From contig CAMTOS010000001.1 in NCBI GenBank assembly GCA_947074195.1, positions 58,507 through 122,506 of the forward strand: a DNA stretch of 64,000 nt. The letters run 5' to 3'. How positions within the stretch are numbered: the stretch's first letter is position 1; each line of letters begins with the position of its first letter. The notes below the pieces were generated by a model that saw only the letters and a program-made list of their open reading frames with translations, did no database searches and was not told the DNA's origin. Below, one piece after another: positions 23,158 to 43,578 of the stretch. This DNA comes from an uncultured Bacteroides sp. Its GTDB lineage: Bacteria; Bacteroidota; Bacteroidia; Bacteroidales; Bacteroidaceae. A program made the position numbers and the translations under genes.

Positions 23158-23239
23158 TGCATAGCCCTTTGCACTAAACTGCACAGCCTTCTGCACTACA
23201 ATGCATAGCCCTCTGCACTAAACCGCATAGCCTTCTGCA
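23158..23239. repeat. 22-bp-period array of four near-palindromic 16-bp units
   Basis: Units start at 23158, 23180, 23202 and 23224: TGCATAGCCCTTTGCA, TGCACAGCCTTCTGCA, TGCATAGCCCTCTGCA, CGCATAGCCTTCTGCA; 6-bp spacers CTAAAC, CTACAA, CTAAAC. Confidence 0.95.
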
Positions 23240-38581: not shown

Positions 38582-41017
38582 TTAGAATTTTACTTCTACT
38601 TTTTTCCCATTATAGTTCACTATTTTCTCTGAACCATCATTCAGCTTCACAGTAAATTTTCGATTCTGAATCATGCCATCATAAGCACCCGAACGTTTAC
38701 CTATCGTCAGTTTCTTTGCTTTATCATTCCATGTAAAAGGTATTTCGGTATATGCGCCATTCTCATAATTATAGTTATCGAACTCATCTTCATAAAGCGT
38801 AAACGTTCCGTCAGCACCTTCATAAACATTAACCGCCAGATTATCCCACGGCTTTTCAGTAGCATACTGCACCTGTGGTCCAATGGGGATAATGCTTCCT
38901 GCTTTCACATAAAGAGGGATTTCATCGATTGATGTTACTTGTGTGATATACTGTCCACCATTATATTTTTGATTCGTCTGATAGTTATACCATGTGGTAT
39001 TTGCAGGAAGATAAATCCCGGTTGTTTTTCCGATAGTAAAATCAACAACCGGTTCTTCAACAGATTCGTTTCCATCATTTCGATTCCAGCCTTCATTTTC
39101 ATCTGCTTTTACAATCGCTTCGGGTGTATATTGTGCCTGCAAAACCGGAGCAACAAGAATAGATTTTCCAAACATATATTGATCATTCATATCCCACACA
39201 TTCTTATCTTCAGGGAAATCCATCATCAGTGCACGCATAAAGCTGGATTGATTCTTTGTCACATCCCACGAAGTAGAATAGATATATGGCAATAAAGAGT
39301 AACGAAGATTTATCGTTTTCTCGATAGCATCATAAATTGGTTCGCCTTTCTCGCCAAAGTAGTAAATCTCACGTTTCAAATCAGTACCATGCGAACGCAT
39401 CATTGGCGTAAATGCACCCTGCTGCAACCAACGTACATATAATTCCTGAAACAGCGGATTCTTTGAAGCTGTACCATCCATCCAGCTTTTATTATAATGT
39501 CCTGAAAAAAATCCGCCAATATCGGTATTAAAATTTGGATTACCTGTCAATGTGAAGTTCAAAGCCGCCGGTATCTGATTGCGGAATGACTCCCATGAAG
39601 AGTTTACGTCACCGGACCATACATTGGCGCCATATCTTTGCTGTCCGGCAAACCCTGAACGGGTAAGAATAAACACACGTTTATCTGAAGTCGTAGCACG
39701 CTGATTATTATATACGCCACCTACAGCCATAAGCGGATAGGCATTGCGCACTTTACGGAAAGAACCCAGATGGGTTTGTGTGTCCATATCTTCAGGTTTA
39801 AATTCCAGATGATCCGGTTCTGTAGAATCCATCCACCAGCCGTCCATACCCATGTCATAGATTCGTGTCAGATTTTTCCAGTAGATATCTCTGGCTTCCG
39901 GATTATAGGCATCATAAACTCTTACTCCCGATGGATATTCCGGATTTGGGGGCCAGGTATCCAGACCCGATAGCGGCCATGTCTTGAAATCGAACAACAT
40001 ATTCTTATCATTCATCTCACGGTAGGCTTTAGTCATCGGACCAAAACTCGACCAGATAGTAATAATGATATGGGCATTGTTTTGGTGTACTTCATCAATC
40101 ATTTGCTGGGCATTCTGGAATCCGCCATCGAGGAATTCCATGGCATTCCACTGATAATTATTGCCCCAGTATTGCCAGTCCTGAATAATACCATCGAGCG
40201 GCACACCCAGTTCGCGATGTTTACTAACTACCTCCAAAAGCTCTTCCTGAGTTTTATAACGTTCGCGACTTTGCCAGAAACCATATGTCCACAACGGAAA
40301 CATCGGAACTTCACCGGTTAAAGCACGCATTTGCGCAATTACACCATCGGCATTGCCACCATACATAAAATAGTAATCCACGGCATCGCCCACTTCAGAC
40401 TCGAAAGAGATCACTCCGCCGTTATCGGCAAAAACCGTAGGTGAATAGTTATCCCAAAACAATCCATACCCTTTTACCGACTGAATAAAAGGAATGGCAT
40501 CTTCCACATTTCCCTGCACCAGATTTTTGTTTTGATTTCGTTGCGACATCTTTCCATTCTGCAAACTGCCCAAACCATAGACCGGTTCATCGCCATCAAG
40601 CTGGAAAGATTGTTTCACCCGATAAGTCTGCACACCGGCATCATTAAAAGGAATAAATACCGGAGCGGCATTCTCATTTAAAAGCTGTTCGTTATTATTA
40701 TAATAAGCAATTTCTCCATTATTCAAATTCAATGAAATCTGTAGCGATTTACTTTTAAGTCCGATAGAGCCGTTTTCTGTTGTTTCTTTTAAAGCAATGA
40801 TTTGTGGTTGCGCTATAACAGTGAGACTTTCTTTATTAAACTCCAGTCCTGAAGGATGTTTTATTACCCGGACAGTTGCATCGTTGTAAAACTGAATTTT
40901 TATATCGACCCCGTTAATAGTCGTTTCGATACCATTTGAAATTCGCTGATAATTCTGTGCCTGCACTCCAAATGGTGCCAGCAAAACAAGGAGAATTAAA
41001 ATTTTTAATGTCTTCAT
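38582..41017 (-). CDS. GH31 alpha-glycosidase, probable alpha-xylosidase
   Basis: DGIIQDWQYWGNNYQWNAMEF, DMGMDGWWMDSTEPDHLEF, RSGFAGQQRYGANVWSGDVNSSWESFRNQIPAALNFTLTGNPNFNTDIGGF. The ORF track extends to 41284, but MKTLKILILLVLLAPFGVQAQ at 41017 is a normal signal peptide; the extension is translated repeat DNA. Confidence 0.93.
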   Translation of the reverse strand: MKTLKILILLVLLAPFGVQAQNYQRISNGIETTINGVDIKIQFYNDATVRVIKHPSGLEFNKESLTVIAQPQIIALKETTENGSIGLKSKSLQISLNLNNGEIAYYNNNEQLLNENAAPVFIPFNDAGVQTYRVKQSFQLDGDEPVYGLGSLQNGKMSQRNQNKNLVQGNVEDAIPFIQSVKGYGLFWDNYSPTVFADNGGVISFESEVGDAVDYYFMYGGNADGVIAQMRALTGEVPMFPLWTYGFWQSRERYKTQEELLEVVSKHRELGVPLDGIIQDWQYWGNNYQWNAMEFLDGGFQNAQQMIDEVHQNNAHIIITIWSSFGPMTKAYREMNDKNMLFDFKTWPLSGLDTWPPNPEYPSGVRVYDAYNPEARDIYWKNLTRIYDMGMDGWWMDSTEPDHLEFKPEDMDTQTHLGSFRKVRNAYPLMAVGGVYNNQRATTSDKRVFILTRSGFAGQQRYGANVWSGDVNSSWESFRNQIPAALNFTLTGNPNFNTDIGGFFSGHYNKSWMDGTASKNPLFQELYVRWLQQGAFTPMMRSHGTDLKREIYYFGEKGEPIYDAIEKTINLRYSLLPYIYSTSWDVTKNQSSFMRALMMDFPEDKNVWDMNDQYMFGKSILVAPVLQAQYTPEAIVKADENEGWNRNDGNESVEEPVVDFTIGKTTGIYLPANTTWYNYQTNQKYNGGQYITQVTSIDEIPLYVKAGSIIPIGPQVQYATEKPWDNLAVNVYEGADGTFTLYEDEFDNYNYENGAYTEIPFTWNDKAKKLTIGKRSGAYDGMIQNRKFTVKLNDGSEKIVNYNGKKVEVKF

Positions 41018-41074
41018 TTTATGTAATTCTTTATAATATAGATTCGGTTTACTGATGATAGCTTTCCGGTTTGG

Positions 41075-41178
41075 TGCAGAACCCTCTGCACTGTGTTGCA
41101 AAGCTATCTGCAGTTTAGTGCAGAGCCCTCTGCAGTTTCCCGCTAAACCTTTTGCAGTTTTCTGCAAAGCCTTATGCA
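41075..41178. repeat. 22-bp-period array of five near-palindromic 16-bp units
   Basis: Units start at 41075, 41097, 41119, 41141 and 41163: TGCAGAACCCTCTGCA, TGCAAAGCTATCTGCA, TGCAGAGCCCTCTGCA, CGCTAAACCTTTTGCA, TGCAAAGCCTTATGCA. A possible degenerate sixth unit starts near 41053. Confidence 0.95.
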
Positions 41179-41210
41179 GTAATTGTGATAACCGTGAAGT
41201 AAAATCGATA

Positions 41211-41276
41211 CAAATATATATGCCAGTTAACAGAAGCATCAAAAGATATGTAACACGTATTAAACCATATGTTACA
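41211..41276 (-). promoter_or_regulatory. Putative promoter and HTCS-type operator of the GH31 operon
   Basis: Minus strand: -7 TATATTTG (41211-41218), -33 TTTG (41240-41243), direct repeat GTAACA (41250) and GTTACA (41271), 21 bp apart, 32 bp upstream of the -7 box. Confidence 0.62.
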
Positions 41277-41300
41277 AATGCCATGAAACACCATAAAAAA

Positions 41301-41326
41301 CGGCACTCTCTTCACAGAGAATGCCG
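41301..41326 (-). terminator. Intrinsic terminator downstream of the GH10 gene
   Basis: Minus strand CGGCATTCTCT-GTGA-AGAGAGTGCCG followed by TTTTTT; one G.U pair favours the minus-strand transcript. Confidence 0.85.
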
Positions 41327-41385: not shown

Positions 41386-43578
41386 TTAATCTTCGCGCGG
41401 GAAGATTGTTTTATTAGCTAATCCATTTGCAAAACCTGCATAAGCATGCTTGCGATTGTAGTCAAGTGTCCACAAACCAATAGGTTCGCCACCACGCCAG
41501 GAAGAAGATTCAGGACTGTCTGTTGGTGCCCAGTGAGTGATACCATAACGCTGACCCGAAGGAATATATTCGAAATATGCTTTTACAATGAATTCGTAAA
41601 GATCGGACTGAGCTTTCAGATGCTCTTCTTCAGCCTCAACCGTTTTAATGCTGGCCAGATTATCTTCTTTCAGGATACCCATATCGAGTTCCGAGATCTT
41701 AATCAATTTACCGGTTGATGCCAGTAACTGGAACATTTTGATAATATTCTCTTCCTGTTCGGCTGCTGCAACCGGATCGAGTTTCAGGTTAACATGCATT
41801 TGCGTTCCGATACCATCGATACGAGTAACGCCGTCAGATTCCCAGTATTTGATCATATCAATCAGACCCCGGCATTTCTGTCCGCCACCTTCAAGACCAT
41901 AATCGTTGATAAACAACAACTCATTTCCATTGCCATGCTTACGGGTAAATTCAATGGCTTTGCGGGCATAATCCTTGCCCATATAATCCTGCCAGTAGAA
42001 TTCATCAGAAGAAAGTTCTTTACCTTCACCTGTTTTAAGCTGAGTTTGATCAGGCCAGTCGGACATTGGCTCATTCACCACATCCCATGCAGTGACATGA
42101 TCTTTTGTCACTTCCATCATACCTGCAATCCATGTTTCCAGCGCACCGGTGATGATTTCAGCCTTTTCTTCATCCGTTTTTTCAATTACCTGATCGGCCG
42201 TTCCGCCATAACCTTCGCCCAATTCCGAGAGTCCGCGTGAGGAATTTCCACCCCAGCCTCCCCAGCCATCAGTGCCTTCTTCGAAATCACTGTTAGTGAT
42301 GATGCTTCTGCTGCTTCCAGCCGGACAAAGAGTTATATTATCAATGTATACGCGACCTTCGTAATTTCCGAAGTTTATGATAAAGCGGTCACGATTTGCA
42401 GCACTGGTGTAGGTACTCAATTCATACTCCTGCCACTCTTTAGTAACATTAAAACTACCAAAACTATTCGATGAATAATCTGAAGAAGATTGAATTTCGG
42501 CCGTTAAAGATCCTGCTGCTGTAGCTTTCACAACAAACTTCAGAATATATTCTGTATCATTATCCAGATAGGTGGCAAAATTGTAAGCCTCTTGTGCTTC
42601 CCAGAAATTACCTGCAACTGTATTCTCGAACCAGTAAGCATAACCTGGTGCTGACCCACTACTATAGCCCTCGCCATCATCAGAAAGACCACAGGATGCA
42701 TTGCCACCCCAACCGCCCCAACCGGCAGCGCCATTCTCGAAATCACCATTGGTAATGATGCTTTGATTGCTTCCAGCCGGACAAAGTGTTACGTTATCGA
42801 TATATACTGTTCCTTCATAATCACCAAAACTGATAATCATACGATTACGGTCGCTTGCAGTTGCAGTAGTAGTCAGTTCGTATTGTTCCCAATCTTTAGA
42901 TACGTTGAAGGTACCAAAACTATCAGAAGAATAATCGGCAGATGATTGAATTTCTGCACGAATTGTTCCGTTAGCCGTAGCTCTGATCATAAACTTTAGT
43001 GTATACTGAGTGCCATTTATTAAATCGGGGCTGATATCATAACACACCTGCGATTCCCAAAAGTTACCTGCAGCTGTATTGGTAAATGTATAGGCATGAC
43101 CGCCATTGCCACCACCGCCTGTACCCGGAATAATTGTAGGTTCAAGAAGTGTATTCAGATAGGTTGCATTCTGATTGGCATGCCAGCAAAGTGTATGACC
43201 AAAGATAGAGGTACCTGCATCATTTGCAGCCTCAACAAAGTTCTCTACCGTAGAAAAATCCATTGTACCATTGTTCTGCACAATAGCCATATGCTTCATT
43301 TCCCAGCCTGCTGTCATCTCATCATAATTGGCATTGGTCAGACGATAAACAATATTCTTCGAAATATAATCGCTTACCGATACTCCTGTACCCAGCTTAA
43401 AATCGGGATTTGCAGTGCGGTCAATATATGTTTTCAGTGCATCATACTTGTTTACATACTCCATGGCAATCACACTCAGCGGTTTTTCCACATCGTACGT
43501 CAGAATATGATCATCGGTACAGGCAACCATTGCCGCAAAAGCAAAGACACCGCACAGTACTTTTTTATATTGCTTCAT
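41386..43578 (-). CDS. xyn10A: GH10 endo-xylanase with two CBM4/9-like modules inserted in the catalytic domain
   Basis: GH10: FGHTLCWHAN ... VTAWDVVNEPMSDW ... LLFINDYGLEG ... IDGIGTQMHVNL ... KISELDMGI, interrupted by two similar modules ITNGDFENGAAGWGGWGGNASCG...AGNFWEAQEAYNF. Symbol by analogy with the Xus/Xyn10A core. Confidence 0.93.
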   Translation of the reverse strand: MKQYKKVLCGVFAFAAMVACTDDHILTYDVEKPLSVIAMEYVNKYDALKTYIDRTANPDFKLGTGVSVSDYISKNIVYRLTNANYDEMTAGWEMKHMAIVQNNGTMDFSTVENFVEAANDAGTSIFGHTLCWHANQNATYLNTLLEPTIIPGTGGGGNGGHAYTFTNTAAGNFWESQVCYDISPDLINGTQYTLKFMIRATANGTIRAEIQSSADYSSDSFGTFNVSKDWEQYELTTTATASDRNRMIISFGDYEGTVYIDNVTLCPAGSNQSIITNGDFENGAAGWGGWGGNASCGLSDDGEGYSSGSAPGYAYWFENTVAGNFWEAQEAYNFATYLDNDTEYILKFVVKATAAGSLTAEIQSSSDYSSNSFGSFNVTKEWQEYELSTYTSAANRDRFIINFGNYEGRVYIDNITLCPAGSSRSIITNSDFEEGTDGWGGWGGNSSRGLSELGEGYGGTADQVIEKTDEEKAEIITGALETWIAGMMEVTKDHVTAWDVVNEPMSDWPDQTQLKTGEGKELSSDEFYWQDYMGKDYARKAIEFTRKHGNGNELLFINDYGLEGGGQKCRGLIDMIKYWESDGVTRIDGIGTQMHVNLKLDPVAAAEQEENIIKMFQLLASTGKLIKISELDMGILKEDNLASIKTVEAEEEHLKAQSDLYEFIVKAYFEYIPSGQRYGITHWAPTDSPESSSWRGGEPIGLWTLDYNRKHAYAGFANGLANKTIFPRED
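42241..43150 (-). repeat. Tandem intragenic duplication (two CBM-like modules, offset about 456 bp)
   Basis: GATGCTTCTGCTGCTTCCAGCCGGACAAAG at 42301 and GATGCTTTGATTGCTTCCAGCCGGACAAAG at 42757, with aligned sequence continuing across each module. Confidence 0.85.

Follow-up and report, generated by a model that had tools for sequence, protein, structure and literature searches.

How a short tandem array in front of a single GH31 gene should be read is the question raised by this locus. The 64-kb window (the whole stretch of DNA analysed) carries a GH10 gene (41386-43578, minus strand; Pfam GH10) and, downstream of it, a GH31 gene (38582-41017, minus strand; Pfam GH31 domains) whose product, read from the ATG at 41017, begins with a signal peptide. 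Between them lies array 2, a neighbour of GH31 whose functional link to that gene is putative. An earlier note had described it as a leader-level regulatory element of GH31. The array consists of five units, at 41075, 41097, 41119, 41141 and 41163, with an exact 22-bp period (span 41075-41178); these five spaced units, as claimed in the earlier note, are borne out by the sequence, by TRF (period 22, 41069-41180) and by a motif-free lag scan. Transcription in the GH31 direction first reaches TGCA-AAGCCTTA-TGCA (41163-41178), followed by CGCT-AAACCTTT-TGCA (41141-41156), TGCA-GAGCCCTC-TGCA (41119-41134), TGCA-AAGCTATC-TGCA (41097-41112) and TGCA-GAACCCTC-TGCA (41075-41090). Half-sites match at 8 of 8 positions in every unit except the degenerate one at 41141, which matches at 6 of 8 and stays on the lattice. 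A possible sixth unit, TGAT-GATAGCTT-TCCG (41053-41068), is on the lattice as had been proposed and keeps an array-type core, but since only 4 of its 8 half-site positions match it is a relic at best.

The kinship drawn previously between array 2 and array 1 (23158-23239) also stands: array 1, which separates divergently transcribed PL8 lyase and sulfatase genes, comprises four units of this family, oriented as in array 2. The lag scan (periods 18-26) of the 64-kb window returned exactly these two arrays, both of period 22, and the pattern TGCANAGCCNTYTGCA (up to three mismatches) has 28 matches in the window against 8.9 expected, a count reached by none of 100 shuffles.

The two arrays are members of a much larger set. 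The genome from which the window comes (G000) has about 50-60 related arrays, which occupy intergenic regions beside unrelated genes and occur in both orientations. In each unit a 6-bp spacer (N6) comes after TGCA-N8-TGCA, which gives a 22-bp lattice; the two dyads, 11 bp apart, are common to all array families compared. The window genome contains 180 lattice pairs (up to three mismatches) against 5 for a control pattern, and when the spacer was allowed to vary from 1 to 25 bp, all except one among the matches listed had exactly 6 bp. We collected 43 arrays comprising 164 units: 40 of the 43 have three to five units, with four units in 23 arrays and three in 14. Half-sites are conserved (1.73 bits) whereas cores (0.62 bits) and spacers (0.50 bits) are not, and in two other genomes the values are 1.95 bits for half-sites against 0.65-0.88 for cores. 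Variant half-sites change as matched pairs, TGCC occurring with GGCA (9 double changes versus 3.7 expected). Unit centres are asymmetric, and both unit orientations are found on one lattice.

A candidate reader of these sites came from comparing the genes that flank arrays: across several genomes one recurrent neighbour belongs to the functionally uncharacterised family PF19555 (DUF6078), and matches PF19555 only. queF, considered as the array-linked gene, was ruled out, the Pfam match being to DUF6078. An array of period 21-23 lies 3' of the stop codon in 56 of 70 distinct DUF6078 genes, at a median of 35 bp, versus 15 of 160 other 3' flanks, most of which are thrC loci. Mean lag-22 identity in DUF6078 3' flanks is 0.47; other lags give about 0.25, and the 5' flanks, where no 22-bp period peak was found, 0.27. 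One gene (L306) is an exception, with its array on the other side, and at another (L272, G101:C64) a run of N follows the DUF6078 match and makes the array unreadable. The motif goes with the clade of the protein: TGCA-clade DUF6078 genes were found with a TGCA array at their 3' end in 7 of 7 cases, and other clades carry other motifs (TGGCA/TGCCA, GAAAC/GTTTC and more). The DUF6078 of Parabacteroides sp. An277 belongs to the TGCA type and that of Parabacteroides distasonis (WP_011966740.1) to the GTTTC type.

The proteins are about 135-159 amino acids long, with four near-invariant cysteines (C17, C22, C28 and C59 in L252 numbering) and a conserved C-terminal segment, YYR..KGER.L.PEEQ..I. The cysteines probably bind zinc, and the C-terminal segment looks like a helix-turn-helix; since the structure predicted from six sequences is poor (pLDDT 44.5), both assignments are read from conserved residues only. 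No relatives of DUF6078 were found by sequence in the PDB, PADLOC and PHROGs searches gave nothing significant, and a literature search found no paper naming the family.

Protein and array have evolved together. Array similarity is 0.31 for proteins less than 35% identical, 0.45 at 40-50% identity and 0.68-0.74 above 50%, and a Mantel test of protein against array gives a rho of 0.19, where the maximum in 1000 permutations is 0.17. On a maximum-likelihood tree of 30 DUF6078 proteins, five motif classes, assigned by eye, require 5 changes versus 16.5 when shuffled, and the TGCA class forms one clade with a support of 100/100.

In the window genome a single DUF6078 gene was detected (G000:C121, L252), followed by four TGCC/GGCA units. 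The dispersed arrays have the lattice of the DUF6078-linked ones, of 22 bp with paired dyads at 11-bp spacing. They also share the core of the gene's own array, AAAGGCTT: 33 of the 158 dispersed cores differ from it at no more than one position, against 0 of 158 in three other genomes. An AGCC-containing pattern had served to locate some of the arrays, which biases this comparison in part. The core AAGCCTTA of the 41163 unit of array 2 is itself one mismatch (in reverse complement) from AAAGGCTT. This recurrence links the arrays of the window to the genome's own DUF6078 gene. Half-sites agree less well: the gene's own array is of TGCC/GGCA type, yet most dispersed units are TGCA, and the dispersed profile is closer to TGCA-clade arrays, with the own array ranking 8th of 48. 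A TGCA-clade DUF6078 gene was not found in the window genome (90.9% complete), nor in G096, G078 (complete) or G140, all of which have TGCA arrays. Either the window genome's DUF6078 protein accepts both TGCA and TGCC/GGCA, or the genome has a TGCA-clade paralogue that the assembly, 90.9% complete, does not include.

Are the arrays maintained where they stand? An orthologous array of the GTGCCA/TGGCAC type, common to related genomes, lies between thrC and a convergent gene. Its half-sites differ between species at 1/49, 3/49 and 2/49 positions, while the rest of the array differs at 12/39, 17/39 and 20/39 and the flanks at 13/40, 19/39 and 16/39; this in-place test concerns one locus, of a motif class other than that of the window. 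The constancy of the half-sites while the remainder drifts indicates that they are kept by selection. Such selection, at a convergent site with no promoter, favours a bound protein that acts locally and counts against the arrays being dead repeats or ordinary operators. Several genomes, the window genome (L136) among them, hold 22-bp arrays in the 3' intergenic region of thrC (elsewhere L188, L190, L192, L194 and L196), and the motif class differs between them (GTGCCA, TGCA, perhaps GTTTC and GGAAC); it is as though location, and not sequence, were conserved.

From these comparisons of sequence, we consider it probable that array 2 belongs, as a single dispersed copy, to a genome-wide family of DUF6078-type DNA-binding-site arrays, which may have a role at the level of the chromosome rather than in GH31 control. 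The best reading of the arrays is that they are putative DUF6078-type sites under selection in place. Each site would be a pair of inverted half-sites (TGCA or TGCC/GGCA), usually with three to five units per array. Since the dyads are 11 bp apart on a 22-bp lattice, every site points to the same side of the helix. DUF6078 dimers might bind the paired half-sites cooperatively, adjacent dimers then sitting on one helical face. The protein would bind both the array beside its own gene and the dispersed copies; plain autoregulation would lead one to expect the former at the promoter, not 3' of the gene. As to what the bound arrays do, the step of which we are least sure, they may organise the nucleoid or insulate transcription units from one another, and would not control GH31; alternatively, binding may serve the maintenance of the repeats themselves.

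Such an arrangement has precedents. In ParB/parS, KorB/OB and arrays of nucleoid-protein sites, the gene for a DNA-binding protein lies beside a cluster of sites, and more sites are found across the replicon. The DUF6078 gene, putatively encoding a DNA-binding protein, similarly stands beside an array with further arrays dispersed, but unlike in those systems the array motif differs between DUF6078 paralogues in one genome. More tentatively, and at somewhat less than an even chance, DUF6078 and its arrays might constitute a separate class of protein and repeat: fast-evolving, non-enzymatic binders, each with its own 22-bp lattice and tens of selected intergenic arrays, together serving Bacteroidales as a system that organises the nucleoid or marks boundaries, several such systems, mutually orthogonal, coexisting in a cell.

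The alternative that survives best is that the arrays are selfish repeats resembling REP/RAYT elements, mobile or expanding in copy number, with DUF6078 or a partner aiding their spread and the copies tolerated in safe intergenic zones. We find it somewhat unlikely, even though their distribution is of the kind this would produce. Lattice matches (up to one mismatch) occur in 28 of 151 genomes of the genus, mostly one or two each; there are 98 in the window genome, 68 in G096 and 0 in most congeners. Cores vary from lineage to lineage while the lattice is constant, and arrays are also found in Phocaeicola, Prevotella and Parabacteroides genomes. G096 (CALUOU) elements, in either orientation and in all gene contexts, share array flanks, of which no clear ones were found in G000. 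These flanks are conserved and asymmetric in elements L034-L100, with CCGTTT on one side and ACACCTGTATCACACTGTGTC on the other, and fall into two subfamilies; spacers there are position-specific (AGATCT, AAGCTT, AAGTCT). Given the shared flanks and fixed spacers, the dispersed unit in G096 exceeds the array. Placement, too, would suit a tolerated repeat, arrays lying between gene ends and promoters: at tandem loci the median distance is 74 bp from the end of the preceding gene versus 142 bp to the next start (p 0.005), and TAnnTTTG boxes number 19 downstream of arrays, in the interval between array and gene, and 5 upstream. Arrays are further enriched at contig ends in G000, 5 of about 51 lying within 100 bp where about 0.65 are expected (the ends of C10 and C164 and the starts of C47, C71 and C79), and may therefore break assemblies or vary between strains. 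Finally, a DUF6078 gene with a GTTTCA/TGAAAC array is present on plasmid pTS1 of the spirochaete Treponema saccharophilum (1922-2359, L312), suggesting transfer between phyla.

What speaks against selfish spread is the absence of a RAYT transposase and the pattern of conservation. The RAYT family (PF01797) is absent from the window genome and five other array-bearing genomes (G096, G112, G078, G023 and G140), and a RAYT/Y1 transposase was rejected as the partner of the arrays. The DUF6078 alignment contains neither conserved transposase catalytic residues nor an HUH motif. DDE transposases are few per genome except in G023, with none in G078, and no array is near any; viral contigs searched for the array pattern gave just a few single matches. 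Half-sites kept at orthologous loci while cores drift are not expected of dead copies. The nearest relatives, about 75-78% identical in coding DNA, are too distant for intergenic empty sites to be read.

REP sequences and BIMEs with their RAYT transposases (Nunvar et al. 2010, PMC2817692), and REPINs (PMC3116915), are nonetheless the nearest system in logic. The likeness covers short palindromic intergenic repeats in many copies and regularly spaced clusters, a cognate gene with its own copy of the repeat, co-evolution of protein and repeat, and several families per genome; in G000 the gene-linked repeat is likewise dispersed between genes, with the own-array core shared among the arrays. The differences appear to set the two apart: DUF6078 stands where REP/RAYT systems have an IS200/IS605-type tyrosine (HUH) transposase; the unit is a TGCA-N8-TGCA-N6 two-dyad lattice of 22 bp with no head of the GTAG/GGAG type; the array is on the 3' side of the gene only (save at L306), whereas RAYT genes are flanked on both sides by inverted repeats; and half-sites are selected while cores drift. 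Compared by description only, the nearest described Bacteroidales repeat is BrickBuilt of Porphyromonas gingivalis, a minisatellite/MITE with 1 to about 23 units of 23 nt, IS5-like terminal inverted repeats, and a leader and tail (PMC4596501). Both are intergenic tandem repeats of about 22-23 bp at many loci of Bacteroidales with no functional theme, but the arrays described here usually have three to five units on a TGCA lattice, and no terminal inverted repeats were identified.

We think it unlikely that DUF6078 is a transcription factor with a classical regulon in which array 2 controls GH31 expression. Array 2 does lie within about 200 bp of GH31, several arrays are 50-130 bp upstream of TAnnTTTG boxes, and, besides tandem settings, divergent gene pairs (9) outnumber convergent ones (3) around arrays. 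Nevertheless, the genes next to arrays are unrelated (miaA, thrC, pheS, ABC-F, mraW etc.), and no shared function was found among them. Arrays between convergent genes, including the conserved one at thrC, and the occurrence of G096 arrays in every gene context also fit poorly with operators.

An element acting in the leader RNA, in which alternative hairpins of the transcribed array would regulate the GH31 mRNA or make it more stable, is improbable. The order given in the earlier note is present as described: a terminator-like hairpin predicted from the sequence after GH10 (GGCATTCTCT..AGAGAGTGCC and a T run, 41301-41326, minus strand), a Bacteroidetes-type -7 box, array 2 and the GH31 ATG. 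The box, TATATTTG (41211-41218, minus strand), a putative promoter by consensus match only, is 40 bp ahead of array 2 on the minus strand. As it is the only TAnnTTTG box between GH10 and GH31, this copy, an exception to the pattern at tandem loci, may be transcribed in the GH31 leader. The leader is also predicted to fold strongly (z -5.1; 0 of 200 shuffles equally good). At this locus the earlier proposal is partly supported, but most of the family lies outside leaders and has no strand preference, units being oriented at random relative to transcription (24 versus 27). The alternative hairpins that had been proposed from partly complementary units found no support: pairing between units is no better than chance, units do not covary, and arrays fold no better than arrays built from swapped units, and the hairpin model was dropped in spite of the strong predicted folds. 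G-U mismatches barely exceed A-C ones (49 versus 42), no compensatory change favouring one RNA structure on the transcribed strand was found, and an Rfam search with the array gave no match. The random orientation, weak G-U excess, lack of covariation and equal folding of swapped-unit arrays make RNA unlikely as the family's reason to exist; the element probably has some purpose other than a leader role.

A functionless minisatellite born of replication slippage would account for tandem units whose neighbours are mostly oriented alike (same in 20 cases, different in 5), but is scarcely credible in view of a strict 22-bp lattice at about 60 places, conserved half-sites with unconserved cores, co-evolution of protein and motif, and purifying selection at thrC.

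Read as putative DUF6078-type sites, the arrays would give an initial clue to what DUF6078, a widespread protein family, does and would account for a large class of intergenic repeats of gut Bacteroidales that, one by one, resemble local regulatory elements; such arrays are easily misread as operon-specific leaders. Pairs of DUF6078 protein and motif would also form a ready collection of putative DNA-binding proteins, orthogonal to each other, whose specificities can be read. At the locus itself, the longest GH31 ORF (38582-41284, 900 aa) reads in frame through array 2; this is most likely a spurious upstream extension, and automatic annotation could mistranslate array 2 as an N-terminal extension of GH31. 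Elsewhere, a motif-free scan of 200 kb of Parabacteroides distasonis (NZ_OY725757.1; L315, L316, L317) found several arrays on 21-23-bp lattices with unrelated motifs, e.g. AATGCCCATTGTAAG and AGTACTTCGTACAG, most of them away from the DUF6078 gene, so that this one genome seems to harbour several array families.
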